In this document: one piece after another, positions 1,868 to 36,466 of the stretch
Numbering within the stretch: the first letter of the stretch is position 1
Layout of the letters: every line of letters starts with the position of its first letter
Source of the DNA: a virus
DNA length: 40,347 bases
Direction: 5' to 3' (one strand)
Virus record (IMG/VR): IMGVR_UViG_3300033155_001455
Span: 1 to 40,347 of that record
The notes under the pieces: generated by a model
The model's input: the letters and a program-made list of their open reading frames with translations, nothing else
Databases searched by the model: none
What the model was told of the DNA's origin: nothing
Made by a program: the position numbers and the translations under genes

Positions 1868-1937
1868 CTTCCATCAACAAAGGCAAGTTTTACGGTTCTT
1901 GGCCGAGATGGAAGGGTGAACAAAACCGTCATTTTTT
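1868..1937 (+). promoter_or_regulatory. pseudoknot RNA element, copy A
   Basis: Stem 1: CTTCCATC (1868-1875) with GATGGAAG (1907-1914), perfect 8 bp. Stem 2: ACGGTT (1892-1897) with AACCGT (1924-1929). The 5' arm of stem 2 lies inside stem 1 and its 3' arm outside, an H-type pseudoknot. Loops: AACAAAGGCAAGTTT, then 9 nt between stem 2 and stem 1, then 9 nt (GGTGAACAA). A T-run (1932-1937) follows. It sits between tRNA-Arg and the TnpB-like gene, so it could end the tRNA transcript and/or control the downstream gene. Confidence 0.75.
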
Positions 1938-1956
1938 TAAAAAAGGAAAAACACAA

Positions 1957-3210
1957 ATGATTAAGTTCAAAAGAAATGCCAAATTTTGGGGATTAGATCT
2001 TTCAGAGCTTGAAGAAGATTTTAAAAAAGAACTTGAAACTCAGAGAAGAATTTCTAAGCATGTTAGAAATATGATTAGAAATGGTGAAATTACATGGATT
2101 ACATCAGATAAAGATCTTATACTTGCAGATGGAACCAAGCAAACAAAAGCAAAATTTAAGGATTCTATTTCTTATTTGTTTGACGAAGATGCTTGCAGCG
2201 AATCAATGAAACGCAACTGCGTGATAACTGTCCTTCATAGTTACCGTGGCTACTGGCAAAGAAATAAAGACAGGATTCTTGACATCAAATGTCCTATTGG
2301 ATTTAAGTATAAATCTTTTAGGTTTAACGAGGCCGCGATTAAGGTTGATAAAGAAAATAAAGTTCTTCTTGTTAAAACAATGTATATGCCTACAGGTAAA
2401 TTTAGAAAAGTCCCCTACAAGTATAGTTTAAAGGAAGATCTTATTACAAAAAAAGAGTTTGGCGGCAACATTTCTTTCACGCAAAAATGCTTTGTTGCTG
2501 GAATTAATGTTGAAGTAAATGAATACGTTTCCAATGATATCCTTGCTTTCGATATTAATAAAGATTCTAAATCTTGGATATATTTTAATGACGGAACTGT
2601 AATCACTAAGCCCGAAACCTTGATTAAGTTAGAAAAAGAAATCAAAGAAATTAATCATTCTTTAGACAAAGATAAAAAGGTTCCGATTAAAAAGAGAGAA
2701 TTAAGATCTAAACAACGTAGAAAGCTAAGATTGCAAATTCAAAAAAAGCACCAAAAAGCCAATAGAATTGTTTTTAAAATTTGTAAAGATATTCTGTCAA
2801 CAGTTATTAAAAACAAGCAATTACTTTGCATTGACGGTGTAAGCATTGCGACAGCTGGAACTTTTGGGCAAGATAAAATTATCCCAAATCTGCGAACAAT
2901 GTGTGAAAATCAAGGAGTTCCTTTTTATGTAACTCCTACTACAAATACTTCTAGAAGGTGTGCTCTTTGTGGACACATACATAAAAATAACAGAAAAACT
3001 GCTGACGAATTTCACTGCATTGAATGCGGGCATCAAGACAACGCGCAATTAAACGCAGCGCATAATATTGCCCATACAGGAAAAAGATTCTTAGACGTTG
3101 GAGTTCCTTTTGGGAGTTGGGATCATCGAAATGCGGATAAGTTAGTCGAAGAATATACTGTTGGCGACAAAGCTGAAAACTCAGAAGAAATGGCAATTGA
3201 TTTTGAATAA
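1957..3210 (+). CDS. TnpB/IS605 OrfB-like RuvC-fold protein, probably nuclease-impaired
   Basis: A 417-residue relative of TnpB, the RNA-guided nuclease ancestral to Cas12. The C-terminal half carries RuvC motif I (AFDIN, D199), a zinc finger (C335/C338 and C354/C357, with the typical T-S-R-R-C-x-x-C-G), and RuvC motif III (DNAQLNAAHNIA, D361). The middle motif, normally V-x-E-D-L with a catalytic Glu, reads LCIDG here: the Glu position is Ile292, followed by Asp293. The spacing of the three motifs is normal, so this looks like point loss rather than truncation. The last residues (EEMAIDFE) match the tail of the next gene's SSB-like protein, which is not a TnpB feature. There is no TnpA and no visible IS ends. 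The ATG follows AAAAGGAAAA. An active nuclease using Asp293 cannot be excluded. Confidence 0.75.
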   Translation: MIKFKRNAKFWGLDLSELEEDFKKELETQRRISKHVRNMIRNGEITWITSDKDLILADGTKQTKAKFKDSISYLFDEDACSESMKRNCVITVLHSYRGYWQRNKDRILDIKCPIGFKYKSFRFNEAAIKVDKENKVLLVKTMYMPTGKFRKVPYKYSLKEDLITKKEFGGNISFTQKCFVAGINVEVNEYVSNDILAFDINKDSKSWIYFNDGTVITKPETLIKLEKEIKEINHSLDKDKKVPIKKRELRSKQRRKLRLQIQKKHQKANRIVFKICKDILSTVIKNKQLLCIDGVSIATAGTFGQDKIIPNLRTMCENQGVPFYVTPTTNTSRRCALCGHIHKNNRKTADEFHCIECGHQDNAQLNAAHNIAHTGKRFLDVGVPFGSWDHRNADKLVEEYTVGDKAENSEEMAIDFE

Positions 3211-3221
3211 GGGAATAATGA

Positions 3222-3590
3222 ATGTCTGATACTAATTACATTAAATTGACTGGCGTTATTGGTAATGTTAAAGAGTTTAATGGCAAAACCATGAATGTTG
3301 TTACATTCGGCATTGGTAATACAAGAGTCCGAGGTAAGGACAAGGAATGGTTTAATATCAAAGCGTTTGGCAAACTCGCTGATGACATTATTGCTAATCA
3401 AGTACAGGGAGGAGATACCGCAGAAGTAGAAGGACAACTTTGTTCTGAAAAATGGACTGGCAAAGACGGTCGGACCCGACATGATATTTACATCAGAGCT
3501 GATGCATTCAACCATTTAACCAAAAAGAATTCGTCTAATTTTACTCCGTTAAATGTTGAAAACCCAGAAATGTCGATTGATTTTGAATAA
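3222..3590 (+). CDS. small SSB-like single-stranded DNA-binding protein
   Basis: A 122-residue protein with the layout of a bacterial SSB: an OB-fold-like N-terminal ~100 residues (KLTGVIGNV, a central VTFGIGNTRVRGKDKEWFN strand pair, GGDTAEVEGQL, then a final strand) and a short tail ending PEMSIDFE. SSB tails are acidic and end in hydrophobics, and bind partner proteins. It differs from the larger SSB at 36505, so the phage has two. It starts 11 nt after the TnpB-like gene behind AAGGGA, so both are likely co-transcribed. Its tail and the DNA coding for it recur at the end of that upstream gene. Confidence 0.72.
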   Translation: MSDTNYIKLTGVIGNVKEFNGKTMNVVTFGIGNTRVRGKDKEWFNIKAFGKLADDIIANQVQGGDTAEVEGQLCSEKWTGKDGRTRHDIYIRADAFNHLTKKNSSNFTPLNVENPEMSIDFE

Positions 3591-3606
3591 TGGATTTTGA
3601 ATAATG
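3579..3606 (+). repeat. 14-bp perfect tandem repeat at the SSB-like gene end
   Basis: GATTTTGAATAATG occurs twice back to back (3579-3592 and 3593-3606), spanning the stop codon. The related 15-mer ATTGATTTTGAATAA also ends the upstream TnpB-like gene (3196-3210) and this gene (3576-3590). Confidence 0.9.
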
Positions 3607-3639
3607 CGTACCTTTCTCAACCAAATGATTTTTTTAGTC

Positions 3640-3668
3640 TTGACTTCTATTATTATTAGAGTTATACT
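3640..3668 (+). promoter_or_regulatory. sigma-70-like promoter for dUTPase-GMP reductase genes
   Basis: TTGACT (3640-3645), a 17-nt spacer and TATACT (3663-3668). A transcript starting near 3675 would carry AAAGGAG (3681-3687) before the dUTPase gene. Confidence 0.65.
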
Positions 3669-3713
3669 TGTGTTTCTACTTAAAGGAGTTCTTAGTCACT
3701 AAGAAAAGTAAAA

Positions 3714-4352: not shown

Positions 4353-4355
4353 TCT

Positions 4356-5486
4356 GTGAAAATCTTAGGATCAAGAAAACTAGACTTTGACGATGTTCTA
4401 ATCAGGCCAAAAAGCTCTGAGGCTGCTAGTAGGGCAGATGTAGATATCTCTAGGAAGTTCAAAGAATTTCCACATTCGCCCAGAACCTTAAGGTGTGTGC
4501 CCATTATTGCTGCAAATATGGATACCACTGGTTCGTTTGCGATGGCTAATGAGTTAACAAAAAGAGGCTGGATTACATGTCTTCATAAACATTACGGCAT
4601 TAATGAATTGGTCGATTATTATGATGAAATTTTTGGTGATTTAGACCCTTGCAAAAAAGCTGAAATCGTAAAAGAGAAGATAAGCCACGTATGGATATCT
4701 ATTGGTATTAGTGATCATGATCTGAATAAGCTTAGGGTTTTTATTAGTCATGCTGGTTTTTGCCCTAACTTATGTGTAGATGTGGCAAATGGGTACACAG
4801 ATCACTTTGTGGACAAAGTTGCCGAAATTCGATCTATTTCTCCAGATTCCATTATTATGGCTGGGAATGTGGCTACTGGAGAACAGGTCGAAAGATTAAT
4901 TCGCCAAGGTAAAGCCGATATTGTCAAGGTTGGTATTGGACCTGGAAGCGTATGCACTACTAGAATCGTAACGGGGGTTGGTTATCCCCAGCTCTCCGCT
5001 ACGATTGAGTGTGCTGATGCTGCCCATGGCTCTCAAAAGGGTTACATTTGTGCGGACGGAGGATGTAAATATAGCGGCGATGTCTGTAAGGCTTTCGGTG
5101 CTGGTGCTGATTTTGTTATGCTTGGTAGTATGTTGTCAGGAACAGAACCTTGTGAAGGAGAATGGGAATATAAAGAAGGCAATTTTGAGAAATCTAGGTT
5201 AAAATATTATGGGATGTCATCTTATACCGCACAAGATAAATATAGTGGAAAATCTACCTATCGACCAAGCGAAGGAAAAGCGGTTTATGTTGACTACAAA
5301 GGGCCAGTTGAATATATTTGTCAACAGTTAGAAGGTGGTATTCGCTCCTGTTGTACTTATATCGGAGCAAAGAAAATAAAGCATATGAACAAATGTACGA
5401 CATTTATAATGGTTAATAGAACACATAATACATTTTATGAAAACAGGGTAAGCCCAGAAGAATCTAGAAATTCTATTAAAGGATAA
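4356..5486 (+). CDS. guaC: GMP reductase
   Basis: Reductively deaminates GMP to IMP with NADPH. The 376-residue TIM barrel has the family start LDFDDVLIRPK, the catalytic-loop motif GIGPGSVCTTR with Cys200, then TGVGYPQLSA and DGGCKYSGDV for phosphate binding, AFGAGADFVMLGSMLSG and YGMSSYTAQDKY. GVGYPQLSA together with the absence of CBS domains favours GMP reductase over IMP dehydrogenase. The GTG start follows GGGAGGTAG and lies 3 nt after the dUTPase stop. The C-terminus extends a little past the barrel. Purine interconversion is uncommon in phages; recycling host GMP toward adenine nucleotides for an AT-rich genome is an inference. Confidence 0.9.
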   Translation: MKILGSRKLDFDDVLIRPKSSEAASRADVDISRKFKEFPHSPRTLRCVPIIAANMDTTGSFAMANELTKRGWITCLHKHYGINELVDYYDEIFGDLDPCKKAEIVKEKISHVWISIGISDHDLNKLRVFISHAGFCPNLCVDVANGYTDHFVDKVAEIRSISPDSIIMAGNVATGEQVERLIRQGKADIVKVGIGPGSVCTTRIVTGVGYPQLSATIECADAAHGSQKGYICADGGCKYSGDVCKAFGAGADFVMLGSMLSGTEPCEGEWEYKEGNFEKSRLKYYGMSSYTAQDKYSGKSTYRPSEGKAVYVDYKGPVEYICQQLEGGIRSCCTYIGAKKIKHMNKCTTFIMVNRTHNTFYENRVSPEESRNSIKG

Positions 5487-5490
5487 AAAC

Positions 5491-6642
5491 ATGGAAGCCG
5501 ATACTAAAAAAGTAAACCTTTTCTGTCTGCCAAATACAAGTGGGTATGGTTGGACAGGTTATCAAATATTAAAGCGATTGATGGCTAATGATTGGGATGT
5601 ATTTTTAGACGTTCCCAAAAGAGGTAGCAGTGCTTTCAGCCTTCAAATGGAAGGCGATATTCAAAATGAATTGATACAAAAAGCTAGAAGAGAAATGATG
5701 TTCCATTATGATGCTGTTAATTTAACAATTTGGCACCAATGGGACTTACATAATAGTATTGGAAAAGGCAGAAATGTTGCTTATACATTTTTTGAAGTAG
5801 ATCATTTATACCCTTATGAAAAACATTCTATGAATTATGTTGATGAACTTTGCGTCACATGTGAATGGGCAAAGGGCGTTTGTGAAAACAACGGCATCAC
5901 CACTAATATTAATATAGTTCCTCTTGGTGTAGATTCTAATTATTTAAATTCTCATGTTTTTAATCCAAAATTTTTAAATCTAGAAGAAGAAAGAAAAAAA
6001 CCCACAATCTTTTTGAATTCTGGAAAATGGGAAGTGCGTAAAGGCCATGATGTTTTATATAAAATATTTAACAAAGCGTTCAATGTGGACGATAATGTAG
6101 AACTATGGATGACTGGCCATAATCCTTATGTTGAAGGCGTATGGGAAACCAAAAGCTGGGAATCCATGTATTTGGATAGTCCAATGGGCAAGGCTGGGAA
6201 GATTAAGATTTTCCCATGGGAAACCACTCATGAAGACCATATTAAAATATTAAACCAATGTGATTGCGGAATATTCCCAAGTAGAGGGGAGGCGTGGAAT
6301 CTTGGAGTTCTTGAATTAATGGGATTAGGAAAAGATGTTATTGTAACAAATTATTCTGGGCATACAGAATTTTGTAATGAATCAAATTCTCATTTAATAG
6401 ATATAGAAAACCTTGAAACTGCATATGACGGTAAATGGTTTAATAATCTATTGACTCCAGGCAATTGGGCAGACATTGGCCTTAATCAAATTGAACAGGC
6501 TGCCGAACTCATGAAAAAAGTCCACCAGAAAAAACAGGAGAATGGATATATTCTAAATGAAGAAGGTGTTAAAACTTCTAAAACATACACATTAGATAAT
6601 ACTTATAAAAAGATGGAAGAAATCCTAATTAAAAACAGCTAG
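5491..6642 (+). CDS. glycosyltransferase, GT-B fold (GT4-like)
   Basis: A 383-residue cytosolic GT-B-type glycosyltransferase that should move a sugar from a nucleotide-sugar donor. The first half has the Gly-rich N-terminal loop (TSGYGWTGYQILKRL) and a middle segment IVPLGVDSNYL that marks the domain boundary. The second half carries FLNSGKWEVRKGHDVL and the donor-binding E-x7-E region, FPSRGEAWNLGVLELMGLGK. A ribosome site (AAAGGA) overlaps the end of the GMP reductase gene. The acceptor cannot be told: phage DNA, virion glycoprotein or host polysaccharide are all possible. Confidence 0.85.
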   Translation: MEADTKKVNLFCLPNTSGYGWTGYQILKRLMANDWDVFLDVPKRGSSAFSLQMEGDIQNELIQKARREMMFHYDAVNLTIWHQWDLHNSIGKGRNVAYTFFEVDHLYPYEKHSMNYVDELCVTCEWAKGVCENNGITTNINIVPLGVDSNYLNSHVFNPKFLNLEEERKKPTIFLNSGKWEVRKGHDVLYKIFNKAFNVDDNVELWMTGHNPYVEGVWETKSWESMYLDSPMGKAGKIKIFPWETTHEDHIKILNQCDCGIFPSRGEAWNLGVLELMGLGKDVIVTNYSGHTEFCNESNSHLIDIENLETAYDGKWFNNLLTPGNWADIGLNQIEQAAELMKKVHQKKQENGYILNEEGVKTSKTYTLDNTYKKMEEILIKNS

Positions 6643-6646: not shown

Positions 6647-6718
6647 CCTCCATTAACAAAGGTGAGTTTGAGACGGTTCTCAACCGAGATGGAGGCACGC
6701 ACAAAACCGTCATTTTTT
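6647..6718 (+). promoter_or_regulatory. pseudoknot RNA element, copy B
   Basis: Stem 1: CCTCCATT (6647-6654) with GATGGAGG (6688-6695). Stem 2: GACGGTT (6672-6678) with AACCGTC (6705-6711). Loop lengths are 17, 9 and 9 nt; loop 1 holds AACAAAGGTGAGTTT. Then A and six T (6713-6718). It starts 5 nt after the glycosyltransferase stop and ends 50 nt before the CAP-domain gene. Confidence 0.8.
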
Positions 6719-6768: not shown

Positions 6769-7254
6769 ATGAAGAGTTTACTTTTAACATTGGGTGTTTT
6801 TGTTATTGGGTGCCAACTAATGTCTCCTTCTGTATGGGGCGAGGAAACCACCCAACAAAAAAGATCGAGACTTATTGGAAAACTAAATAATAATTTACTT
6901 AACACGCACAACCGCGAACGCCAACGAAACGGTCGTCGTCCTTTTATTCTAGACAAAAGGCTGACCGCAGCGGCACAAAAACACGCTGATTGGATGGCTA
7001 ATAATAGTAATTTAAGCCACACAGGAAAAAATGGATCAAGCCCGTCTCGACGAGTTGGATCTGGTTTTAACGGAATCGGAGAGAACATCGCATTCGGCCA
7101 ATCTGGTTATAACGAAGTCACAAGAGACTGGATGAATTCCAGTGGACATAGAGCTAATATTCTAGGCGGATATAATACAGTTGGATTTGGAGCTGCCAAA
7201 GCTAAAAACGGAAGAATTTACTGGTGTGCGGTTTTTGGCAATTGCAATTTCTGA
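6769..7254 (+). CDS. secreted CAP/SCP-domain protein, possible lipoprotein
   Basis: A 161-residue exported CAP-superfamily protein. Residues 1-24 form a signal sequence; VIGC at 12-15 fits a lipobox, so Cys15 may be lipidated, or a signal peptidase may cut near WGEE. The CAP domain shows NTHNRERQRNGRRP (H47, E50), KHADWMA (H72), LSHTG (H84), GENIAFG (E105) and DWMNSSGHRANIL (H127), covering the usual metal-binding His/Glu set. Bacterial CAP proteins are usually of unknown activity. GGAGG (6754-6758) precedes the ATG, which follows pseudoknot copy B. A secreted CAP protein in a phage suggests action on the host envelope or in superinfection; this is inference. Confidence 0.85.
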   Translation: MKSLLLTLGVFVIGCQLMSPSVWGEETTQQKRSRLIGKLNNNLLNTHNRERQRNGRRPFILDKRLTAAAQKHADWMANNSNLSHTGKNGSSPSRRVGSGFNGIGENIAFGQSGYNEVTRDWMNSSGHRANILGGYNTVGFGAAKAKNGRIYWCAVFGNCNF

Positions 7255-7310: not shown

Positions 7311-7383
7311 CTTCCATTAACAAAGGTGAGTTTGGGACGGTTCTCAACCGAGATGGAGGAGGAGACAAAACCGTCATTTTTTT
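7311..7383 (+). promoter_or_regulatory. pseudoknot RNA element, copy C
   Basis: Stem 1: CTTCCATT (7311-7318) with GATGGAGG (7352-7359), including a T-G wobble where copies A and B have Watson-Crick pairs. Stem 2: GACGGTT (7336-7342) with AACCGTC (7369-7375). Loops are 17, 9 and 9 nt, the last AGGAGACAA; then A and seven T. The downstream sigma-like gene starts 28 nt later. Confidence 0.8.
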
Positions 7384-7411: not shown

Positions 7412-8074
7412 ATGGCAAAAAATAATATTGATATTATTGGAATTCATGATAAAAAAATAAAGCTTCCTCAAAAACCAAACAAAGAATTTGCTTCACTAGA
7501 TGAATACATCACCATTGCTAAAAAATGTATTTCACGCCATGCTAATAAGTTTAGACCAAACCTTGCTAAAGAAATGCTAGGAAATGAAGATGCCGTCTCT
7601 AATATCGCTCATGCTGCAATGATGGCCGACTGGGCATTTAACGGCAAAGGCAATTTACACGGATTTAGAAAAGAAAGAATCCTATTTGCTATCAGGTGTT
7701 ATTTAACAAGAAGTTGTAAAAATAATAAAAGAAATACATTATCACTAAATCGTCTTATAAATTCAGACAAATCTCAATCAACAACTTCTTTTCTAGATCG
7801 TCTTGTTGACAAATCGCCGACTGTTGAAGATACTATGTTTCAGAAAGAAAAAATTGAAAAACTGAAAAATTTAATAAAAGAAGCTAATATTCCAAAAAAT
7901 GCTAAAAAATACATACAAATGCACTTTTTTGAAGGGCAATCAATCGCCTCTATCGCAAAGAAAAATGGCGTAAGCAGACAAGGAATATACACTCTGATAG
8001 ATAGATCCCTTTCAAATATTAGAAAAAGCGGTGTGAATGACGACTTTTTTCGGAGTATAATAAGTAATGACTAA
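7412..8074 (+). CDS. sigma-70-like factor (region 2 and 4)
   Basis: A 220-residue protein with the plan of a small sigma factor. The N-terminal half (about 25-110) is helical and resembles region 2 (EYITIAKKCISRHANKFRP and the WAFNGKGNLHGFRKERILFA segment). The C-terminal helix-turn-helix (about 170-210), QSIASIAKKNGVSRQGIYTL, resembles region 4 and would contact the -35 box. The match to region 2 is weaker than in the factor at 36936. It would direct host RNA polymerase to phage promoters. The ATG follows AAGGAG, just after pseudoknot copy C, which may regulate it. A plain helix-turn-helix regulator is the alternative. Confidence 0.65.
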   Translation: MAKNNIDIIGIHDKKIKLPQKPNKEFASLDEYITIAKKCISRHANKFRPNLAKEMLGNEDAVSNIAHAAMMADWAFNGKGNLHGFRKERILFAIRCYLTRSCKNNKRNTLSLNRLINSDKSQSTTSFLDRLVDKSPTVEDTMFQKEKIEKLKNLIKEANIPKNAKKYIQMHFFEGQSIASIAKKNGVSRQGIYTLIDRSLSNIRKSGVNDDFFRSIISND

Positions 8075-13260: not shown

Positions 13261-15333
13261 ATGTCATACTTCTTAAAATATAGTAGTCTTGAGTACGGTT
13301 CTACTAATATACAAGTAACAGAATTCTCAAATTATCAGTCAGCGTTAGATGCCGCTAAAGAAAAAGCAAATCAAGGCTTCGCTACTACTATAGAAACTGG
13401 TACTACTCACATACATGTAGAGAAAGAATCGCAAGACCCGACTCCTCCGCCCACTCCTCCTACAACACAATGCTGCCCAGAAAATGCCTGTAACTTAGGT
13501 ATAGTAGAAGGCGAAAATATCAGTGAAGCAGATTTAGAAAAAAATACGGTAATTTTGGAAAAATTGGCTAGTACTGGTAAGGGAATTTATTTTCCTGCTG
13601 GAACTTATGAATTCAGCCGTTCTGTGAAATGGAGTTCCTCAAATAATATAGTTATTAAAGGAGATGGAAAATCCAGTAAAGTTGTTCAAAAGCATCTGGG
13701 AACTCGCCCTGGTTTATTTAGATTTGATTCTTGCTATAATATTGAGATTTCCAGTCTACAGTTAGTTGGAACAAATGCCCAAGGTTATGTCCCAGAATCA
13801 GCTACTAAAAATGAATATGCTATTGGCTGTTTTAAATCTGATAATATCAAAGTTTCTAACTGCGATATATGGGGCTTTCCCACTGACAAGGCAATTCTTT
13901 TCCGAGATTGCTGGTGCGTAAAAGTCGACAATTGTCTTTTGTATTATAACGTAAGCCGAGGTGAGGACGGATGTGATATTTATGTACAAGAATCCCAAAG
14001 TCCTTATGAAGCCGATGTCACTAGATACATTGAAATAACAAATAATAAGTTATTATCAAATAATCTTGGAGGAATTCTATGTACTAGCCCTAATTCTGGG
14101 TTAATTATCACAGGTAATACGGTAGTAACATGCGACAAAAATCTCGTAGAAATTCAAGACCGAAATCTTATTAATAGAAAAGAAGGTATTGAAATCCACT
14201 ATGCCGTAAGCAATGCTGATGGAAATAATAGAGATATTAATGAGGCTATCTGTGCAAATAATTTAGTAAAAAATTGCAGATGGTCAGGTATATACTGCAA
14301 TAATTCAATATATGGTGATAATAACCCTGGTGGAATTAAAGGTTCTATTACTGGTAATACGATTGTTAATACCTGTGTAGAAACAAAGAAATATCAAATA
14401 GCAAATAAAAGAGCTGGTATTTGTATTCAACAGCACCAACAATTGGTCATAGCCAACAATGTTATTAGAGACGTTGGTCCAGATGCCACAAATGGACAAG
14501 AACATGCTGGAATTATTGTAGAATGCACAACACCCAAAACAAAGAATATTAAATGTTCTGCAATAGTAAATAATAATATTATTACAACTGTAGACGGACA
14601 CGGAATTTTAGTAGGCAATTCTGGGGGTAAGTACAATATAACAAGCAATATCGTCCAAAATTGCACAAAAGCATTTTTATTCGTTAATGGTCTTGCTAAA
14701 GGAGGTTTTCATATTGACGGAAACTCTTTCCTTAACGAAATTGATAATTATGGATACCACAAAATGGTGATCCTCGCAGGAGGCAAGGACGGTAACTTAA
14801 ATTTCACTAATAATCTCATTAGTTCGGAAGAGAAAGTTATCTTTTCCAACTCTGCGATAATGCTACATTGTTCCTTGAATAAAGCAAATATTATTGGAAA
14901 TAAACTGATTGGACCTACTGCTCATACGACAAATATTCGTGGAATGTATTTAGACGTAATTAAGAAAAGTGGCCGCCATTTAGAAATGGTTTTAAAAGAC
15001 AATTACATTGCCAATGCAAAATATGGTATTTATGGAGGAGGAACTCCTGCTGCTTATTGCGGGCCAACGATTATGGAAGGTACAACATGGGAGAATGTAA
15101 CCGTTAAAATTAGCGGAGATTCTAAACCTTATATCTTTGAAGGCGAAAAAACATTTGAAGGAAGATGTACTATTTATTCCGACTCAAATCCAAGTAATGG
15201 AACTTGGTTGCTGGGAGATAGCCGAACAGTAAAAATACCAAAATTAGATCAACCATTTTATTTCGCATGTGTTAAATCAGGAAACGGTTCTTCTAGCAAT
15301 TGGCTAGGTGGATCAAAAATTAGGAACAGATAA
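13261..15333 (+). CDS. tail fibre/tailspike, right-handed beta-helix protein
   Basis: A 690-residue virion protein. The N-terminal ~55 residues form a small mixed domain, then a Pro/Thr linker (PTPPPTPPTTQCCP, ~60-73), then a pectate-lyase-like parallel beta helix: FPAGTYEFSRSV (~117-128) starts it, and many coil turns follow in the pattern N-I-x-I-S/x-N-x-I/V, for example NIEISSLQLVG, YIEITNNKLLSNN and NITSNIVQNC. The end (about 600-690) is a different beta domain. Phage beta helices bind or cut surface polysaccharides. No catalytic residues can be named. It has its own promoter and overlaps the dCMP deaminase start by one base. Confidence 0.8.
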   Translation: MSYFLKYSSLEYGSTNIQVTEFSNYQSALDAAKEKANQGFATTIETGTTHIHVEKESQDPTPPPTPPTTQCCPENACNLGIVEGENISEADLEKNTVILEKLASTGKGIYFPAGTYEFSRSVKWSSSNNIVIKGDGKSSKVVQKHLGTRPGLFRFDSCYNIEISSLQLVGTNAQGYVPESATKNEYAIGCFKSDNIKVSNCDIWGFPTDKAILFRDCWCVKVDNCLLYYNVSRGEDGCDIYVQESQSPYEADVTRYIEITNNKLLSNNLGGILCTSPNSGLIITGNTVVTCDKNLVEIQDRNLINRKEGIEIHYAVSNADGNNRDINEAICANNLVKNCRWSGIYCNNSIYGDNNPGGIKGSITGNTIVNTCVETKKYQIANKRAGICIQQHQQLVIANNVIRDVGPDATNGQEHAGIIVECTTPKTKNIKCSAIVNNNIITTVDGHGILVGNSGGKYNITSNIVQNCTKAFLFVNGLAKGGFHIDGNSFLNEIDNYGYHKMVILAGGKDGNLNFTNNLISSEEKVIFSNSAIMLHCSLNKANIIGNKLIGPTAHTTNIRGMYLDVIKKSGRHLEMVLKDNYIANAKYGIYGGGTPAAYCGPTIMEGTTWENVTVKISGDSKPYIFEGEKTFEGRCTIYSDSNPSNGTWLLGDSRTVKIPKLDQPFYFACVKSGNGSSSNWLGGSKIRNR

Positions 15334-16456: not shown

Positions 16457-18790
16457 GTGTCAACTTCAACAATTAAAGCTTTGCAAGATTATATTTTTAC
16501 TTCTAAGTATGCACGATGGATCGAAGATAAAAACAGACGAGAGACATGGAATGAGGCTGTGAATCGAGTTAGGGATATGATGCTAACTCAATATGAAGAC
16601 AAGGACGTAGAAGAAGAAATCAACTGGGCCTACGACATGATGCAGAAGAAGCGTATGTTAGGTTCTCAACGAGCACTTCAGTTTGGCGGTAAGCCTGCAT
16701 TTAAAAAGAATGCCAGAATCTACAACTGTGTGGCTTCATATTGTGATAGGCCCAGATTCTTCCAAGAATATTTTTGGCTTCTACTGTGTGGCTGTGGAGC
16801 TGGTTTTTCAGTTCAGAAACATCATGTAGCAAAGCTTCCAGAGTTGAATTTTTCTCCAAAAGAAGTTGTAACACATACTATTCCTGACAGTATTGAAGGT
16901 TGGTCAGACGCGCTTGGAATCTTGCTTACAACTTATCTTGGCGTTGCAACCGATCCAAAGTTTGAGGAATGGCTTAACGTTGAAGTAGAATTTGATTATT
17001 CTGAAATTAGACCAAAAGGCGCTCCTCTTTCTAGTGGAACTGGTAAAGCTCCTGGTCCAGAAGGCCTTAATCAATCCCTGGATAAAATTAGAGATATCTT
17101 AAATCGTTGTACTCATAGTGGTCAAAAAAGACTTCGACCAATCGACGCTTTTGATATTTGTATGCATACTGCTGACGCAGTTTTAAGTGGTGGTGTCAGA
17201 CGGTCTGCAACCATCGCCTTGTTTTCAGCAGACGATATGGAAATGGCTCAATCTAAAACTGGCAGTTGGTGGACAGAAAACCCTCAAAGAAGTAGGGCTA
17301 ATATTTCTGCTTTACTTGTTAGAAATCAAACTACGAAGGAAGAGTTTGAAAAACTAATTGATTGTGTTAAGCAATTTGGAGAACCTGGATTTTACTGGTC
17401 CGATTCTCCAGAAATGGTTCCCAATCCTTGTGTTGAGATCGGCTTCTTTACTTATGATATTGTTGATGAAAAGAAGTTCAACAAATGGAAAGAAAAGCAT
17501 TCAACTGAAGCAATTACCTGTGATCCCGAAAAGATTGGTCTAAAATCTGGATGGCAAGGCTGCAATCTTTCAACTACTAATTGTGCAAATCTAAGAGGTA
17601 GTACGAAAGAAGAGAAAGTAGCATGGTTTATGGACAATGTAAAGGCCGCGACTATTGTAGGAACACTACAGGCTGGCTTTACAAATCTAGAATATCTTGG
17701 AGAGACTTCTGAGAACATCTTCAGACGAGAGGCTCTACTGGGCGTTTCGATGACTGGAATGATGGATAATTATGAAGTTGTTCTAGATCCTGATGTCCAA
17801 CGTGAAGCTGCTTCTCTAGTAAAGAAAGTTAATAAAGATATCGCATCCAAAATCGGAATTAACTTGTTTGCTCGTGGAACATGTTTGAAACCAGAAGGTA
17901 CTGGAAGCCTTATTTTGGGTACTTTGGCTACTGGTATTCACTCACATCACTATGTACGTTATCTTAGAACAGTACAAGCTAACGTAGATGAGAACGTTTA
18001 TCAATACTTTAAGTCTGTAAACCCAACTGCTTGCGAACCATCACTAAATTCTGCTACAAATACCGATGATGTTATCTACTTCCCAATTGAAGTTCCAGAC
18101 GGGGCTAAAACCAAAAATCAATTGCCAGCAGTAGAAATGTTGAAATTGGTTAAAAGCACTCAGCAAAACTGGGTGATGGCAGGAAGAAGAAAAGATAAAT
18201 GTGTTATGCCGTTTATTGAGAATAATGTTTCAAATACGGTAACAGTCACAGAAGAAGAGTGGGACGAGGTAGTTGACTTTATCTATAAGAATAGAAAGTA
18301 TTTTACTGGTATCACATTACTTGGAACCAGTGGTGATAAAGATTATCCTCAAGCTCCTTACTGTTCTGTCTACACTTCTCGACAGATCGCTAAAGAATAT
18401 GGCGAGGCAGCTTTGTGGACTTCTGGCCTTATTGAATTAGCCATTAGAGCATTCAATGGTCAGTTGTATACAGCATGTTTGGCAATTACTAATCCAGACT
18501 ATAATCCGTCAAATGATTTTGATATTAATATGGATAAGTCTGATGATCTAAAAATTGCAGCGGCTAGAAAAGAATTTGTGGAAAAGTCTAGAAGATTTGC
18601 TGATAAGTATTTTGATAGTGATTATCAAAGGCTTACATACTGTTTGAAAGATGTATTTAATTATAAACGATGGTACGATCTTAGAAGAACGTTTGAATCT
18701 GTGGACTATACCTCACTTGTAGAATACGAAGATAATACAACTCCAGAACAAGAAATCTCATGTGCAGGGGGAGCTTGCAGCATTGTCTAG
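16457..18790 (+). CDS. nrdJ: class II ribonucleotide reductase (B12-dependent RTPR)
   Basis: Reduces ribonucleotides to deoxyribonucleotides using adenosylcobalamin and no oxygen. The 777-residue size fits the monomeric triphosphate reductase of the Lactobacillus type. Visible marks: IYNCVASYC with a substrate-site Cys (C91), LLLCGCGAGFSVQKHHV, SGGVRRSATIALFS, the NPCVEIGFF motif (Asn, thiyl-radical Cys and Glu), CNLSTTNCAN, and the C-terminal redox pair CAGGAC (CxxxxC). GTG start behind AGGGAAA. No intein. No class I NrdB follows. As the host or environment must supply B12, the phage's host makes or imports it. Overlaps PhoH. Confidence 0.92.
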   Translation: MSTSTIKALQDYIFTSKYARWIEDKNRRETWNEAVNRVRDMMLTQYEDKDVEEEINWAYDMMQKKRMLGSQRALQFGGKPAFKKNARIYNCVASYCDRPRFFQEYFWLLLCGCGAGFSVQKHHVAKLPELNFSPKEVVTHTIPDSIEGWSDALGILLTTYLGVATDPKFEEWLNVEVEFDYSEIRPKGAPLSSGTGKAPGPEGLNQSLDKIRDILNRCTHSGQKRLRPIDAFDICMHTADAVLSGGVRRSATIALFSADDMEMAQSKTGSWWTENPQRSRANISALLVRNQTTKEEFEKLIDCVKQFGEPGFYWSDSPEMVPNPCVEIGFFTYDIVDEKKFNKWKEKHSTEAITCDPEKIGLKSGWQGCNLSTTNCANLRGSTKEEKVAWFMDNVKAATIVGTLQAGFTNLEYLGETSENIFRREALLGVSMTGMMDNYEVVLDPDVQREAASLVKKVNKDIASKIGINLFARGTCLKPEGTGSLILGTLATGIHSHHYVRYLRTVQANVDENVYQYFKSVNPTACEPSLNSATNTDDVIYFPIEVPDGAKTKNQLPAVEMLKLVKSTQQNWVMAGRRKDKCVMPFIENNVSNTVTVTEEEWDEVVDFIYKNRKYFTGITLLGTSGDKDYPQAPYCSVYTSRQIAKEYGEAALWTSGLIELAIRAFNGQLYTACLAITNPDYNPSNDFDINMDKSDDLKIAAARKEFVEKSRRFADKYFDSDYQRLTYCLKDVFNYKRWYDLRRTFESVDYTSLVEYEDNTTPEQEISCAGGACSIV

Positions 18791-20369: not shown

Positions 20370-20928
20370 GCATCGACGATGTTTGGTGTTAAATGCGGAC
20401 TATTCTGCTATAGGAATTATTTCTTGGCAAGATGCTATGATTCTGCATTACAAAAATAGCATAAGTGTGGTAGAATATTATAAAGAAGATTATATACTTC
20501 TGGCTGACGGAAGCCACCATCCAGTTCCCGCCGTAGTAACACTGAAAAAATACGTTCCTTCAGCTAAAAAGAATGTGGCATTCTCAAAAAAGAATGTTTT
20601 TATTAGAGACAGGTTGACATGTCAGTATTGTGGTGTTAAATTTAATATAGAAGAATTGACATTCGATCACGTTATACCTAAATGTAAATGGAGATATAAA
20701 GGTTCTCCAACAAAATGGGAAAATATTGTTACATCTTGCTACCCATGTAATCATAAAAAAGCAGATAAACCTTTGAGTGATACGGATTTGGTCCTACTTA
20801 AACAACCAGTAAAACCAAACCCAAGAAGTTACGTACTAGGACTTGCACCTTGGCAAATGTTACAGGCAGAATGGTTGCCTTATATTCCTAAGCATTATAA
20901 ATTGATGATGGGCGTTAGAAATGATTAA
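20362..20928 (+). CDS. HNH endonuclease
   Basis: A 188-residue HNH nuclease. The zinc-binding nuclease core lies at about 85-135: CQYCG, then DHVIPKCKW with the metal-binding Asp-His, ENIVTSCYPCNHKKAD with Asn and the second Cys pair plus the final His. The N-terminal part (VLNADYSAIGIISWQDAMIL) matches the common bacterial/phage HNH architecture that starts with L-V-L-N-x-x-Y. Freestanding homing or packaging-related nuclease are both possible. It overlaps the genes on both sides by 8 bases, arguing that it is fixed in the operon rather than a recent invader. Confidence 0.88.
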   Translation: MRKHRRCLVLNADYSAIGIISWQDAMILHYKNSISVVEYYKEDYILLADGSHHPVPAVVTLKKYVPSAKKNVAFSKKNVFIRDRLTCQYCGVKFNIEELTFDHVIPKCKWRYKGSPTKWENIVTSCYPCNHKKADKPLSDTDLVLLKQPVKPNPRSYVLGLAPWQMLQAEWLPYIPKHYKLMMGVRND

Positions 20929-21121
20929 TAGAAAAGTGTGTCAATCTCCTATAACTTGTCACGATTGTGGATTATTAGAAGACGAATATATTGAATATTT
21001 TGATGGCAATGGATGGTGCTGTTTTTGTGCGTATACGAATGGTCATATAGAAAAAGAAGATTTTTGGGACGATCAAGCTCAAAATAAAGAATTACATAAT
21101 TACTTCCGCAAACAAAAGTGA
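20921..21121 (+). CDS. small zinc-finger protein (66 aa)
   Basis: A 66-residue protein with two Cys pairs (C14-x2-C17 and C33-x2-C36) likely to bind one zinc, surrounded by acidic residues (EDEYIEYFDGNGW). It starts within the HNH gene and its last 6 codons contain the 5' arm and first loop of pseudoknot copy D. No family recognised. Confidence 0.65.
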   Translation: MINRKVCQSPITCHDCGLLEDEYIEYFDGNGWCCFCAYTNGHIEKEDFWDDQAQNKELHNYFRKQK

Positions 21122-21174
21122 GTTTTTGGCGGTTCTCAACTGATGCGGATGTAACTCCAAAACCGTCATTTTTT
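21103..21174 (+). promoter_or_regulatory. pseudoknot RNA element, copy D
   Basis: Stem 1: TCCGCA (21105-21110) with TGCGGA (21144-21149): base pairs are kept though the sequence differs from all other copies (CCATC-type). Stem 2: GGCGGTT (21128-21134) with AACCGTC (21161-21167), with a G-T wobble. Loops 17 and 9 nt, with AACAAAAGTGAGTTT in loop 1; the last loop is 9-11 nt depending on how stem 1 is ended. A and six T follow. The 5' part lies inside the preceding coding region. Downstream gene starts 37 nt later. Confidence 0.72.
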
Positions 21175-30808: not shown

Positions 30809-31314
30809 TTATCGAAAAAAAAGATTGCAATTTTTGGGACGAAGTTTATAATGAAAACGGTAATGCTGAAGAGCCTTATGATGCAATCGTGTGTGATATC
30901 ACTAAAAGTGTTAGAGGAAATGGAATGCTGGTGATGGAAACAGGTATTGAGCAAGAGTTCAAAGAAAGATTTGAAGGATTGTGTGAAACCTGGGGACATA
31001 GACTTGTAACAGGTTTAAATGCCGATGGAGTTATGTGCAATCCAACTTTTCTTAAAAGAAAAAATCAGCCAGAGGAACTTGAAGGAAATGTTGATTTAAC
31101 ATTTATTACAGCATTTCCAACTAGAGAAGAATTTAAAAATACTCCAGATAAAGAAACCATTTCTTTGTCTTGCGAAGTAATGAAAAAACTTGTAGATACG
31201 ATGGGTTGGGACAGAGTTTTAATGTCTGCTCCATCTAATATTGATTGGGAAGAAATTAAGCCTATTTTTGTAAAACATTTTGATACTAGATTTACGGTGG
31301 TTATTAATGAGTAA
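30805..31314 (+). CDS. hypothetical protein (169 aa)
   Basis: 169 residues, alpha/beta, acidic, starting MIIEKKDCNFWDEVYNENG; no recognised motif. ATGA overlap with the nuclease and an 8-base overlap with the polymerase gene place it firmly in the replication operon. A role with the polymerase is inference only. Confidence 0.6.
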   Translation: MIIEKKDCNFWDEVYNENGNAEEPYDAIVCDITKSVRGNGMLVMETGIEQEFKERFEGLCETWGHRLVTGLNADGVMCNPTFLKRKNQPEELEGNVDLTFITAFPTREEFKNTPDKETISLSCEVMKKLVDTMGWDRVLMSAPSNIDWEEIKPIFVKHFDTRFTVVINE

Positions 31315-33196
31315 ATATTTTCCGTTACACGTTCATTCTCACTACAGCCTACTCGACGGTCTTAGCAAACCAGAAGATATCTCTTCTCGTTGTGAAGAAA
31401 TAGGTTCTGAAGGTTCTGCTCTGACAGACCATGGTTCTATGAGTGGGCACATTCAGTTTCTATCACAGATGAATAGGTCTGGTAAAAAGCCTCTTTTAGG
31501 ATGTGAGTTTTACATCTGTAAAGAAAATGCCGATGTGAAGAATGATCGTAACAGGAAATTGGCTCATTTGTGCGTAATTGCTCGCAATGATCAAGGATGG
31601 AGAGATTTAGTACAAATGGTCTCTATGGCTAACCAAAAGGATCATTTCTATCATAAACCACGCCTAAGTTTAAAACAAATAGAACCATTTGCACAAAAAG
31701 GAAACTTAATGGCTTTTAGTGGTCATTTAGGATCTAATATGGCCAACGTTCTATTTGATGAAGATGGTGAGATTTCCAATCACTGGAAAACAGAAGGCAC
31801 CCGTTTAGCAAGATGGTTTAGTGATACATTTGGTAAAGATAATTTCTTTTTAGAAGTTCAGTTAATGGATTGTGTGCTAAACCCAACTCAAAAGATTGTT
31901 GCTGATTGTATTCGAGAAATTAGTAAAGATACTGGAATTCCATGCGTTGCTACTCCTGATGCTCATTATGCTCGCAAAGAAGACGCACAAGACCAAAGAA
32001 TTCTACTATGTTCTAATATGAAAACCACTATCCAACAGGCTAATAGGCCTGAATTTGGACTTGGAACATTTTTCAAATCTAATCAATACCATATTCCATC
32101 ATATGAGGAGATGCGTCAATGGCATACGGCAGAGGAACTGGACAACACAAATCTTTTTGCAGCCAGGGTAGAGGAATACAAAAACATTCTACGTCCACCA
32201 ATGCTTCCAAATTTCCCCTGTCCAGACGGGATGAATCCAGAGGAGTATTTACGTCATTTGTGTCGAGAAGGTTGGAGGCAGAAGATTCAAAACGTAGTAC
32301 CCAAAGAGAAGCATCCAGAATATGTTCAGAGAATCGAGAAAGAGATGGCGGTTCTGCAAGGAGCAGGGCTATCTAGTTATTTCTTAATTGTTGCAGATAT
32401 TATAGATTTCGTGCGAAAAAGCGGATGGTTGCCTGGACCTGGACGAGGTTCCGCTGCTGGTTGTCTAGTATCTTATCTTTTGGGTATTACTTCAATTGAT
32501 CCTATGCCTTTTGACTTAATTTTTGAAAGATTTTATAATGCTGGTCGTAACACGGGAGGCAGAGTATCTATGCCAGATGTAGATATGGATGTTCCCAAAT
32601 ATGCTCGCGAACACGTTATTCAGTATATGAGAGATACGTATGGAGAGCAGAATGTCGGCCAAATGATTACATTTACGACCATGAAGGGACGTGGGGCAAT
32701 TAAGGATGTTTTGCGTGCTTATGGCGGAATTCCTTTTGAAGAAATGAATAAAATCACTAAAAATATTATTGAAGAACAAAAGATTGCGGATGAATTACAG
32801 AAGATGAAAGAGGATCAGGGAGAATCTTCAATCATTAAATGGTGTTTGGAAAATACTCCTGATAAACTTTCTGAATGGTGTAGAATTGAAGATAGCGGAA
32901 AATTAACAGGCCCATTAGCACCTAGATTTGAACAAGCCATTAGATTAGAAGGTACTAAAACAGTTCAATCTAAACATGCTGCTGGGGTTGTTATTGCTCC
33001 AGAACCATTGGCGAATATGTGTCCCATGGTTTTAGATACAGAAAGCGGAAGACAAATAGCTGGTTTAGAAATGGAAGACTTGGAAAACGTCGGCGGAATT
33101 AAATTTGACGTTTTAGGAATTACTGCTCTAGATAAAGCTATGGGTGTTCAACAAGATTTATGCTTAGGAGAAATAAATGAAATTTCAAGAGCTTGA
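31307..33196 (+). CDS. DNA polymerase III alpha subunit, N-terminal half (split gene)
   Basis: The 629-residue front half of a bacterial-type replicative polymerase. It carries a PHP domain: HVHSHYSLLDG (H8, H10, H12), LTDHGSMSG and PDAHYARKEDA; then the palm GPGRGSAAGCLVSYLLGI, MPDVDMDVP with two catalytic Asp, and KFDVLGITALDKAM with the third. The chain ends soon after (CLGEINEISRA): the last residues read out of phase over the ribosome site and start of the next gene, as expected if the frame was cut by inserted DNA. The rest of the enzyme is at 34656. No intein motif is visible. Confidence 0.9.
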   Translation: MSKYFPLHVHSHYSLLDGLSKPEDISSRCEEIGSEGSALTDHGSMSGHIQFLSQMNRSGKKPLLGCEFYICKENADVKNDRNRKLAHLCVIARNDQGWRDLVQMVSMANQKDHFYHKPRLSLKQIEPFAQKGNLMAFSGHLGSNMANVLFDEDGEISNHWKTEGTRLARWFSDTFGKDNFFLEVQLMDCVLNPTQKIVADCIREISKDTGIPCVATPDAHYARKEDAQDQRILLCSNMKTTIQQANRPEFGLGTFFKSNQYHIPSYEEMRQWHTAEELDNTNLFAARVEEYKNILRPPMLPNFPCPDGMNPEEYLRHLCREGWRQKIQNVVPKEKHPEYVQRIEKEMAVLQGAGLSSYFLIVADIIDFVRKSGWLPGPGRGSAAGCLVSYLLGITSIDPMPFDLIFERFYNAGRNTGGRVSMPDVDMDVPKYAREHVIQYMRDTYGEQNVGQMITFTTMKGRGAIKDVLRAYGGIPFEEMNKITKNIIEEQKIADELQKMKEDQGESSIIKWCLENTPDKLSEWCRIEDSGKLTGPLAPRFEQAIRLEGTKTVQSKHAAGVVIAPEPLANMCPMVLDTESGRQIAGLEMEDLENVGGIKFDVLGITALDKAMGVQQDLCLGEINEISRA

Positions 33197-33845: not shown

Positions 33846-33864
33846 ATTTAATAAGGAATATATT

Positions 33865-34581: not shown

Positions 34582-34582
34582 T

Positions 34583-34612
34583 TTGAAAAATAGAGTATAA
34601 TAGAAGTATACC
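34583..34612 (+). promoter_or_regulatory. possible promoter for the second polymerase half
   Basis: TTGAAA (34583-34588), 18-nt spacer, TATACC (34607-34612). A better -10 (TATAAT, 34596-34601) has no matching -35. The 74-nt AT-rich gap is the only break in the 31307-36359 gene run. Confidence 0.38.
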
Positions 34613-34655
34613 TTTTATTTTATTTGGTTATTTTTTGTTGTAGGACTTTTGTAAT

Positions 34656-36359
34656 ATGATCGAGATTAAGAATGGTTATGCATATTTTGAGTGTGGCTGC
34701 AAATTTGAAGTTGAGGAAGAAGGGCCGCCAGTCAAGCTAAAGTGGGATTTTGATCTTCCTCTTAATTGCCAAAGAACTTGGGATTTAATTGGTGAAGGTA
34801 ATACCAAAGGCGTATTCCAACTAGAAACACGATTCGGCCAACAATACGCTAAAAAGCTCAAACCAGAAAATATTGAGCAGCTTGCAGCTCTATCTGCAAT
34901 CCTAAGACCTGGATGTATCCAATCTATTCGTGACGGTAAGAATATTGCCGAGCATTACATGGATAGAAAAAACGGTCTAGAAGAAGTTACAATCTCACAT
35001 CCTGCTCTAGAACCTATTCTTTCGCCAACCTTTGGTGAAATGATTTACCAGGAGCAGGCAATGAGAATTGCCCAGGATATTGCTGGCTTTGATCTCCAAC
35101 AAGCTGATGTACTTCGTAAAGCTATTGGTAAGAAAAAGGCCGACATTATGGCCAAGCTTGAAAATGAGTTTCTTGAAGGGTGTGAAAAACAAGGAATTCT
35201 AAATAAAGAAGAAGCCCAAGAGCTGTGGGATCAGATCGAAAAATCACAACGATATTCTTTTAATAAAAGCCACTCAGTATCTTATGCAATGAATGGTTAT
35301 TTATCTGCTTATGCAAAAGCACATTTTCCAGCATCATTCTTTACTTCATATCTATGGTATGCCAAAGATAAGCAGAAGAAGTTTGATGAAATCAAATTAC
35401 TAGTTGCTAATGCTAGAGTCATGGGTATTAATATCTACCCCCCAGATTTTAGATACGCCAATGAACATTTTAAACGTATCTCGAATTCTGTACCAGGACA
35501 ACCAACATATAATCCTTATGATGACAAAATTTATTTCGGTCTTTCTAATATTAAAGGAATCGGGAAAAGCGCTGTCGTAAAAGTTGCTAATGCAATTTAT
35601 CTTGCAGAAACAGCAATTAATCGCCCTCGCAAAGATTGGTCATGGACCGATTTTCTTGTATATTTTTCGCAAGATGTAGGTAGCACTGTAGTAGCTGGTA
35701 TGATTGAAGCAGGAGCTTTAGACTATTTAAAAACAGCAAGAACGCAAATGTTATTTGATTATGAACAATATTCCAAATTAACAAATAAAGAACATGCGTG
35801 GATTAAGCAGAATATAAAAAATGCCAGTTCGCTAAAACAAATATTGGAAGAATCATTAAAACGACATGATAACCCTGATAAAAAAGTAAAGGGTCCGTGT
35901 GCTAATAAAAACAGAATACAGAAAATGAAAGACATTTTAAGCTTAGTTGTAAATCCGCCTTATGCTTTAAGGGATGCTCCCGATTGGATTGCTAGGGTAG
36001 AAGAAGCCAGACTCGGAATTTCCATTACTGCTTCAATTCTAGATGGTTGCAAAAATGCGGATCAAGCAAATTGCACTATTTTAGAATTTCAGAAACATAA
36101 GGAAAAAACTAGCGGAATTTTTATTGCTTGTCAAATCGACGAAATAAAAACCCATATTACTAGAAACAATGAACAGGAAATGGCTTTTGTTACTGTTAGT
36201 GACGGCGAATGCTCTATGGATTGCGTAATATTTCCAAATGACTGGGATGAAATTCGCAGTAAAGGAATTTGTGTTGCGGAAAATACTGTTCTTGTTAGTG
36301 GAGATAGATCAAGAAATAGCGATAGTTTGATTGTTAAAAAAATGTGGCAATTGACTTGA
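34656..36359 (+). CDS. DNA polymerase III alpha subunit, C-terminal half (split gene)
   Basis: The 567-residue rear half. The extra N-terminal ~33 residues contain a Cys-x-Cys (YFECGCKF) not seen in normal DnaE, then LPLNCQRTWDLI aligns with DnaE's I-P-L-D-D-x-x-x-x-x-L, continuing GVFQLET, LRPGCIQ, FGEMIYQEQAMRIAQDIAGF, KAIGKKKADIMA, SFNKSHSVSYAM (fingers), helix-hairpin-helix IKGIGKSAVVKVANA and an OB fold (about 485-565). Together with the first half the length (~1196) is that of a full alpha chain. Overlaps the SSB promoter at its stop. Confidence 0.9.
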   Translation: MIEIKNGYAYFECGCKFEVEEEGPPVKLKWDFDLPLNCQRTWDLIGEGNTKGVFQLETRFGQQYAKKLKPENIEQLAALSAILRPGCIQSIRDGKNIAEHYMDRKNGLEEVTISHPALEPILSPTFGEMIYQEQAMRIAQDIAGFDLQQADVLRKAIGKKKADIMAKLENEFLEGCEKQGILNKEEAQELWDQIEKSQRYSFNKSHSVSYAMNGYLSAYAKAHFPASFFTSYLWYAKDKQKKFDEIKLLVANARVMGINIYPPDFRYANEHFKRISNSVPGQPTYNPYDDKIYFGLSNIKGIGKSAVVKVANAIYLAETAINRPRKDWSWTDFLVYFSQDVGSTVVAGMIEAGALDYLKTARTQMLFDYEQYSKLTNKEHAWIKQNIKNASSLKQILEESLKRHDNPDKKVKGPCANKNRIQKMKDILSLVVNPPYALRDAPDWIARVEEARLGISITASILDGCKNADQANCTILEFQKHKEKTSGIFIACQIDEIKTHITRNNEQEMAFVTVSDGECSMDCVIFPNDWDEIRSKGICVAENTVLVSGDRSRNSDSLIVKKMWQLT

Positions 36360-36383
36360 CATATTCAGTTTTTAGAGTATATT
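36356..36383 (+). promoter_or_regulatory. sigma-70-like promoter for the SSB-sigma operon
   Basis: TTGACA (36356-36361), 16-nt spacer, TATATT (36378-36383). The expected start (~36390) lies only a few bases before pseudoknot copy E, so the element would form the first structure of the ssb transcript. The -10 could also be TATGAT (36383-36388), with a long spacer. Confidence 0.68.
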
Positions 36384-36394
36384 ATGATAAACTA

Positions 36395-36466
36395 CTTCTA
36401 TCAAAAAAAGTAAGTTTCAGACGGTTCTTATCTAAGATGGAAGAGAAGACAAAACCGTCATTTTTT
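36395..36466 (+). promoter_or_regulatory. pseudoknot RNA element, copy E
   Basis: Stem 1: CTTCTATC (36395-36402) with GATGGAAG (36436-36443), one U-G pair. Stem 2: GACGGTT (36420-36426) with AACCGTC (36453-36459). Loops 17, 9 and 9 nt, with AAAAAAAGTAAGTTT in loop 1. A and six T follow. The SSB gene starts 38 nt later. Like T4 gene 32, this SSB mRNA would carry a pseudoknot in its leader. Confidence 0.8.

Follow-up and report, generated by a model that had tools for sequence, protein, structure and literature searches.

The stretch of DNA analysed here, hereafter the window, is a 40,347-nucleotide virus record (IMG/VR IMGVR_UViG_3300033155_001455, positions 1 to 40,347). On its plus strand it carries five copies, A to E, of an RNA element of about 60 nt in which two helices cross to form an H-type pseudoknot, and the first of these copies stands directly ahead of a gene for a protein related to TnpB and Cas12f. 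Copy A (1868-1929) follows three tRNA genes (tRNA-Ile, tRNA-Asp and tRNA-Arg, plus strand, 1628-1863), with a gap of 4 nt between tRNA-Arg (1791-1863) and the first stem, and the TnpB/Cas12f-like gene (plus strand, 1957-3210; 417 amino acids) starts 27 nt past it. Copy B (6647-6710) begins 4 nt past the stop codon of an open reading frame (ORF) at 5491-6642, copy C (7311-7374) lies between a CAP-domain ORF ending at 7254 and a sigma-like ORF at 7412-8074, and copy D (21103-21166) holds the stop codon of the ORF at 20921-21121 within its loop 1. Copy E (36395-36458) sits in the leader of an SSB gene (plus strand, 36505-36936). A putative sigma-70-type promoter precedes it on the same strand (36356-36385), recognised by consensus match only, with TTGACA at 36356-36361 and either TATTAT at 36380-36385 (spacing of 18 nt) or TATATT at 36378-36383 (16 nt); the transcription start is predicted near stem 1, and copy E would then open the SSB transcript.

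The layout is most easily followed in copy A, where stem 1 pairs 1868-1875 with 1907-1914, loop 1 spans 1876-1891, stem 2 pairs 1892-1897 with 1924-1929, loops 2 and 3 occupy 1898-1906 and 1915-1923, and a T run follows at 1932-1938. The five copies had been proposed, on this strand and at these positions, in a sequence-only reading of the window, and renewed reading of the sequence and a covariance-model search agree with it. In that search, run unfiltered with a model whose training set included copies A to E among others, the five scored 66-74 bits and the next match in the window 13 bits (E 0.34). Stem 1, written in register, reads CTTCCATC, CCTCCATT, CTTCCATT, CTTCCGCA and CTTCTATC in copies A to E, with the partner strand present each time and 7 of 8 pairs formed in copy D. 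Stem 2 has 7 bp (6 bp in copy A), and loops 2 and 3 are each 9 nt in register when copy D is written with an 8-position stem 1. The near-constant lengths claimed earlier are thus borne out, except that loop 1 of copy A measures 16 nt and not 15. The supposed replacement of the whole of stem 1 in copy D proved narrower, as pairing is indeed kept but the outer stem is retained and only three consecutive inner pairs are swapped with compensation. Nested folding alone gives copies A to E no unusual stability (z -0.8 to -1.9), which is what a pseudoknot would lead one to expect.

Related phages carry further copies. Two longer records, G002 (44.9 kb) and G003 (85.1 kb), overlap the ends of the window at 99.96% and 99.98% identity, and a third (G001, 18.6 kb) is contained within it. 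G002 adds copies X1, X2 and X3, bringing the window phage to eight known copies, while covariance-model searches of G003 gave no copy beyond E. Record G004, whose tRNA-TnpB segment is 86% identical to that of the window, has copies F and J1, and G005 has copies G, H and J2. G004 also retains a decayed copy between TnpB and the next gene (locus L056 near 5737; 34.7 bits with covariance model R3), in which the 5' half of copy H is left and the stem-1 partner is lost; its intact counterpart is found in G005, and the remnant is left out of the count. A DnaB profile scan gave 440 relatives, of which the best 80 were kept. One of these is the window phage itself; in the other 79 DnaB loci (1.01 Mb) a structure descriptor gave three hits against none in reversed sequence, namely K1 and K2 in G013 and N1 in G042. 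Five of the DnaB loci (L059, L065, L067, L090 and L093) fell outside the searches with R3 and with the TnpB profile. Record G051 (locus L193) came from a pattern scan of viral contigs, from which 56 stretches were picked by loop-like letters; the descriptor found two matches in these, both in G051, against none in reversed sequence, a result that is no neutral sample because of how the stretches were picked. Model R2, constructed with neither G051 nor stem-2 pairs, identifies five copies there (M1 to M5; E 8e-8 to 3e-11), and M1 to M3, which were found only through R2, still form a 7-bp stem 2. With N1, which is probably a genuine copy, the total is 21, made up of 8, 2, 3, 2, 5 and 1 in the window phage, G004, G005, G013, G051 and G042. 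Tandem copies occur in G005 (J2-H) and G051 (M4-M5), and in G004 copy J stands with the remnant of H. In a collection of named phages nothing matched the region of copy E; the M1-M2 region had 538 matching records, and the 8 listed cover tRNA stretches. A Lachnospiraceae match to one of the RNA patterns was put down to chance because stem 1 is absent from it.

Both helices of the pseudoknot covary in alignments of 11, 15 and 20 copies, as the sequence-only reading had supposed when it proposed crossing stems in which pairing and not sequence is kept, and covarying homologues in related phages, whose absence it had named as a refuting outcome, do exist. In the 11-copy alignment 95.8% of stem cells are paired and 6 of 15 pairs show two-sided changes; with 15 copies the values are 97.1% and 12 of 14, and with 20 copies (alignment A7) again 97.1% and 12 of 14, with 66 two-sided cells. 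For each of the three alignments, none of 500 shuffles equalled the original in percentage paired or in count of two-sided changes, a comparison to be read with the caveat that related rows may exceed shuffles even without structure. Sliding the partner strand by 1-3 columns in the 20-copy alignment lowers pairing to 33-52%. Alignment A7 excludes N1 and leaves copy F one position off in stem 2, which counts against the structure. The descriptor behind K1, K2, M4 and M5 requires both stems, which makes the pairing of these copies in part a product of selection. Less constrained evidence comes from the patterns behind X1-X3, F, G and H, which had no stem-1 requirement, and from the model behind M1-M3, which had no stem-2 pairs. 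Whole stems are replaced among the copies, stem 1 ranging from CTTCCATC to GTATTACA, CTGAATTA and CTCTCACC. The single-stranded core is conserved in most copies, with AAA..NN.AGTT in loop 1, TTCT at the junction of stem 2 and loop 2, and CAAAA at the junction of loop 3 and stem 2; the letters that never vary fall in these three places. An RNA family is well supported by these data. A scan of the window against 4227 Rfam families returned, at gathering score, only the three tRNAs, in line with the earlier opinion that no known riboswitch class has this layout, and more permissive scoring of four copy regions (A, B, C and E) yielded nothing but tRNAs and, below threshold, families unrelated to the element. 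A literature search, with most subscription journals outside its reach, found nothing describing the pseudoknot RNA. Of the known families against which the element was compared, none has a definition that it fits.

All 21 copies lie in sense orientation relative to the flanking genes, and 18 of them mark an RNA boundary, being placed where transcription is predicted to begin, at the end of a tRNA, or at a stop codon or a few nt past one. Sigma-70-type sites scoring 11-12 of 12 and ending 6-13 nt ahead of stem 1 are found at E, X1, X2 and K2; as background, such scores turn up at 2.2% of the positions that follow stop codons, giving p of about 0.001 for 4 of 21, and at 0.28% of positions overall. 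At E and at X2 (L018 9840-9845) the TTGACA box shares bases with the upstream gene's stop codon, and at X1 (5366-5371) it comes immediately behind that codon, a compact gene-boundary design. Seven copies are separated from a tRNA end by 1-5 nt: A, F, G, M1 and M2 after a tRNA (F as judged by sequence) and X1, M1 and M3 before one, with M1 occupying the gap between tRNA-Met and tRNA-Arg. Five start 4-6 nt past a stop codon (B, X3, K1, M4, N1), and a stop codon falls inside D, J1 and J2. The copies away from a boundary are C and H (56 nt and 23 nt after a stop codon) and M5 (the second of a tandem). Downstream, X1 runs into a tRNA gene, M1 and M3 abut tRNAs and K2 leads into thyX; the SSB gene is one context among several. 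The terminator-like tail described for the window copies is present there in all five, as a run of six or more T after stem 2, but is no defining trait of the family; at least five T within 14 nt past stem 2 occur in 9 of 21 copies against a background of about 2%, a comparison whose p-value comes out too small because the copies are related, and the run is best regarded as a frequent add-on. A mobile-DNA repeat of the MITE (miniature inverted-repeat transposable element) or REP (repetitive extragenic palindrome) type was also considered and is not favoured, given the uniform direction of the copies and the G-U pairs they include. Two features near X2 were noted by eye: directly after it (L018 9934-9975, in G002) lies a tiny pseudoknot-like element or plain hairpin, CGAG..GGGTT CTCG..AACCC, with a T run, and an inverted repeat, TATCTATA/TATAGATA, spans its promoter and is perhaps an operator.

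The protein encoded next to copy A belongs to a group whose members bind RNA. TnpB relatives bind pseudoknotted omega-RNA, and active TnpB and Cas12f enzymes have three catalytic RuvC acids, D-E-D. Five TnpB-like proteins are known from these phages, the other four being 77, 77, 44 and 30% identical to that of the window; all five match PF07282 above cut-off, the C-terminal region being Cas12f1-like_TNB, and the four scanned with NCBIfam TnpB models gave below-cut-off matches. A predicted model of the window protein (pLDDT 77.3, pTM 0.60) finds its best structural matches in TnpB and Cas12f complexes, including the ISFba1 TnpB-reRNA complex (Foldseek E 1.6e-14) and a TnpB-omegaRNA complex (VIA-align Z 17.8, rmsd 6.1, 337 aligned). 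In the solved Cas12f and TnpB structures shown the RuvC-III acid is D, within NADFNA or NADYNA, and it is lost in all five phage proteins, which have Q in four cases (Q364 in the window protein) and H in one, within NAQLNA, DAQLNG or SHINAA. By eye, the RuvC-II E reads as D in all five (D293 in the window protein) and the RuvC-I D is kept. The protein is accordingly predicted to be nuclease-dead. In the named-phage collection matches cover only the C-terminal region of TnpB (13 of 13 for the window protein; the best 8 of 15 for the G051 protein), and searches of genome contigs, made with only two peptide patterns, confirmed no TnpB there.

RNA and gene travel together. A profile of four TnpB homologues matches in 5 of 79 records (G002, G004, G005, G051 and G042), and in each of the five a copy stands upstream of tnpB, ending 27, 31, 31, 49 or 91 nt before the gene. 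Whole copies flank tnpB on both sides in G005 and G051, the downstream copy of the latter being 22 nt away, and J1 in G004 and J2 in G005 contain the tnpB stop codon; in G042 the descriptor found no copy 3' of the gene. The cassette lies beside tRNAs in G002, G004, G005 and G051; in G042 it is found between recA and the gene that follows, so that RNA and tnpB stay paired even where the locus changes. By the protein identities the linkage spans three diverged lineages, and it holds in both kinds of locus. N1 had been listed before the TnpB of G042 was known, and by our own arithmetic the chance of a match so close upstream of its single tnpB is about 2 in 10,000 (from 3 descriptor hits, about 160 nt and 2 Mb of strands). 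The 3' flanks of the window phage's eight copies, where a guide might be sought, have longest matches of 10-12 nt to G002 and G003, and 60 random sites have 8-13 nt; no extended guide-like match was found in these two records, a comparison that short guides could escape. Also in G042, similar GCCTGATNCAGTAG motifs with hairpins flank the TnpB cassette (L125 3374-3450 and 4676-4800); judged by eye these are not the same pseudoknot and are perhaps another structured RNA or the ends of a mobile cassette.

Conserved loops on drifting stems, together with a co-travelling gene for a protein of an RNA-binding family whose nuclease appears to have been lost, are most simply read as a protein-RNA pair. 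We therefore favour, tentatively, the explanation that this undescribed phage pseudoknot family supplies the RNA partner or binding site of the co-encoded, apparently nuclease-dead TnpB, with no recognisable guide; the partnership itself we infer from linkage. Each copy would become, start or end an RNA: stem-1 promoters would produce some (4 of 21 copies), tRNA maturation would release others (7 of 21, 1-5 nt from a tRNA), and terminators would leave others at the 3' end of an mRNA. The loops, conserved on drifting stems, may be what the dead TnpB recognises, and the resulting complex could adjust read-through, RNA stability or translation; its targets would be the tRNAs, ssb, thyX, the sigma-like gene and its own gene, tnpB. 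The result would be a protein-RNA regulon, mainly acting in cis on contexts such as ssb (E), thyX (K2), the tRNAs and the sigma-like gene after C, with free trans-acting copies possible. Several observations weigh against such a partnership. A covariance-model search of the window found no copy 3' of tnpB, and window copies B, C, D and E are far from the gene. G013 has two strong copies, and its 65.7-kb fragment has no match to the TnpB profile. Ascertainment was biased, G002, G004 and G051 having entered through RNA patterns and G005 through TnpB; among the 74 DnaB-derived records the association rests on G042 (Fisher p 0.027), and the value of 2.8e-7 obtained when the remaining records are added carries that bias. 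N1, the copy in G042, is weaker than the others, with a loop 2 of 10 nt and 7 of 8 pairs in stem 1, and models R2 and R3 gave no match in that record. Five further records (G008, G038, G050, G062 and G063) have weak R3 matches only (14-21 bits, E 0.002-0.048), which were taken as chance and not counted.

The tail on part of the copies raises a different explanation, a conditional intrinsic terminator or attenuator in which stem 2 and the T run stop transcription and the pseudoknot senses a ligand or protein that permits read-through, TnpB being incidental. We consider this rather unlikely. The enrichment of T runs over background speaks for it. In copies A, C and E the T run and the gene stand so close that a promoter would have little or no space between them, and termination there could not be absolute. 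A T run directly after the stem, the mark of an intrinsic terminator, is missing from 12 of the 21 copies; X2 and K1 have a separate hairpin and T run downstream, X1, M1 and M3 lead into tRNAs, and the downstream genes have no evident common pathway. A competing hairpin between the 5' strand of stem 2 and loop 2 could act as the switch, and it is paired in 87.3, 78.7 and 75.0% of cells over 11, 15 and 20 copies, a percentage reached by 0 of 500 shuffles with 15 copies and 5 of 500 with 20, where slid versions give 17-42%. Its two-sided changes are nonetheless not in excess (2 pairs with 20 copies; reached by 134 and 344 of 500 shuffles of the 15- and 20-copy alignments), and an antiterminator switch of this kind is possible but not favoured. 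A pocket for a metabolite in the pseudoknot is possible. The preQ1, fluoride and SAM-II riboswitches are pseudoknots with terminators, and the phage element resembles them in its pseudoknot, conserved loops and, on some copies, terminator-like tail; unlike them it has no Rfam match, occurs in mixed gene contexts with several copies between tRNAs, and lacks a general tail. The variety of positions, at predicted starts, tRNA ends and stop codons regardless of the gene, could also mean that the pseudoknot needs no protein of its own and works by shielding 5' and 3' RNA ends from nucleases or by steering how phage transcripts and tRNA precursors are processed. An element that acted only as a structural block would need neither loop letters conserved so strongly nor a link to TnpB, and we hold this reading to be unlikely.

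Two phage precedents suggest other roles. HK022 putRNA is a nascent phage RNA of about 70 nt made of two stem-loops, with putL just downstream of PL (PMC9378689), and a put-like element would bind RNA polymerase as nascent RNA and make it resist later terminators. The pseudoknot RNA is of similar size, and E, X1, X2 and K2 come directly behind their promoter-like sites. The present RNA differs from putRNA in its crossing helices, both covarying. Ahead of 17 of the 21 copies no promoter-like site scores above 8 of 12, and many copies lie at gene ends or between tRNAs; antitermination of this type seems quite improbable. Multi-copy pseudoknots might alternatively soak up a host RNase toxin or another defence protein, as does pseudo-ToxI in phage PhiTE; the type III antitoxin RNA ToxI consists of tandem 36-nt pseudoknot repeats (PMC3475682). 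Antitoxins of this type stand next to a ToxN-like toxin gene. Tandem pairs in G004/G005 and G051 recall that arrangement, and multi-copy pseudoknot RNA in a phage is common to both; the units here are about 60 nt instead of the 36 nt of ToxI, and they are mostly single and dispersed. No Rfam antitoxin family matched in the scans of the window, no toxin family was seen in the subset of neighbouring genes scanned, and conservation across diverged phages suggests a role internal to the phage. We give a decoy little credence.

The favoured pairing of pseudoknot and dead TnpB has its closest parallel among TnpB derivatives themselves. Guide RNAs of TnpB and TldR proteins lie at the 3' end of the gene. 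With active TnpB and Cas12f, which work with omega-RNA or guide RNA, the phage protein shares the fold and the C-terminal region, and it differs in the lost RuvC-III acid. TldR proteins are nuclease-dead, TnpB-like repressors that use a guide RNA and are known in phages (PMC13418256). The likeness lies in a phage-borne TnpB fold with an inactivated RuvC and, in G004 and G005, a structured RNA that extends across the 3' end of tnpB. The present RNA differs in being an H-type pseudoknot of about 60 nt in up to eight dispersed copies, mostly at transcript ends, with copies both upstream and downstream of tnpB and no guide recognised after the pseudoknot; no flagellin was found among the neighbours scanned, a further difference from TldR.

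Other genes give some indication of the hosts. G013 encodes a phage-borne, DUF1559 pseudopilin-like protein (L080 16467-17540; PF07596, 1.2e-42), and a protein of G002 weakly matches a planctomycete cytochrome C (5.2e-5). DUF1559 is typical of planctomycetes, a hallmark of the group, and judging from these genes planctomycete hosts are likely. The window phage has two SSB genes, one directly after the TnpB-like gene (3222-3590; PF00436, 5.3e-9) and one directly after copy E (36505-36936; 1.6e-26). Its DNA polymerase III alpha is encoded in two pieces, 31280-33196 and 34656-36359, which further ORFs separate, and in G013 the gap corresponding to this split holds thyX and the DUF1559 protein. 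Sulfotransferase, CAP-domain and beta-helix proteins are encoded at 841-1500, 6769-7254 and 13261-15333, and a ribonucleotide-reductase-like ORF (16457-18790), with weak Pfam matches just below cut-off, is 57% identical in G013.

The novelty lies in the RNA family and in the way it seems to pair, without a guide, with a dead TnpB, whereas the protein alone is a variant within a known type; an RNA family with covariation of this strength and no Rfam match is new in its own right. It is possible, though doubtful, that a TnpB was domesticated as a dedicated pseudoknot binder without guide-directed DNA targeting while its RNA spread over transcripts (tRNA operons and the ssb, thyX, sigma-like and tnpB leaders) as a guide-free regulon. 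Were this true, domesticated RNA-guided nucleases would have a second fate besides guide-directed repression, the recognition of pseudoknots embedded in transcripts. To our knowledge little is known of gene control in phages of planctomycetes, and this small RNA and small protein, which are directly testable, would offer an opening onto it in phages whose hosts are probably planctomycetes.

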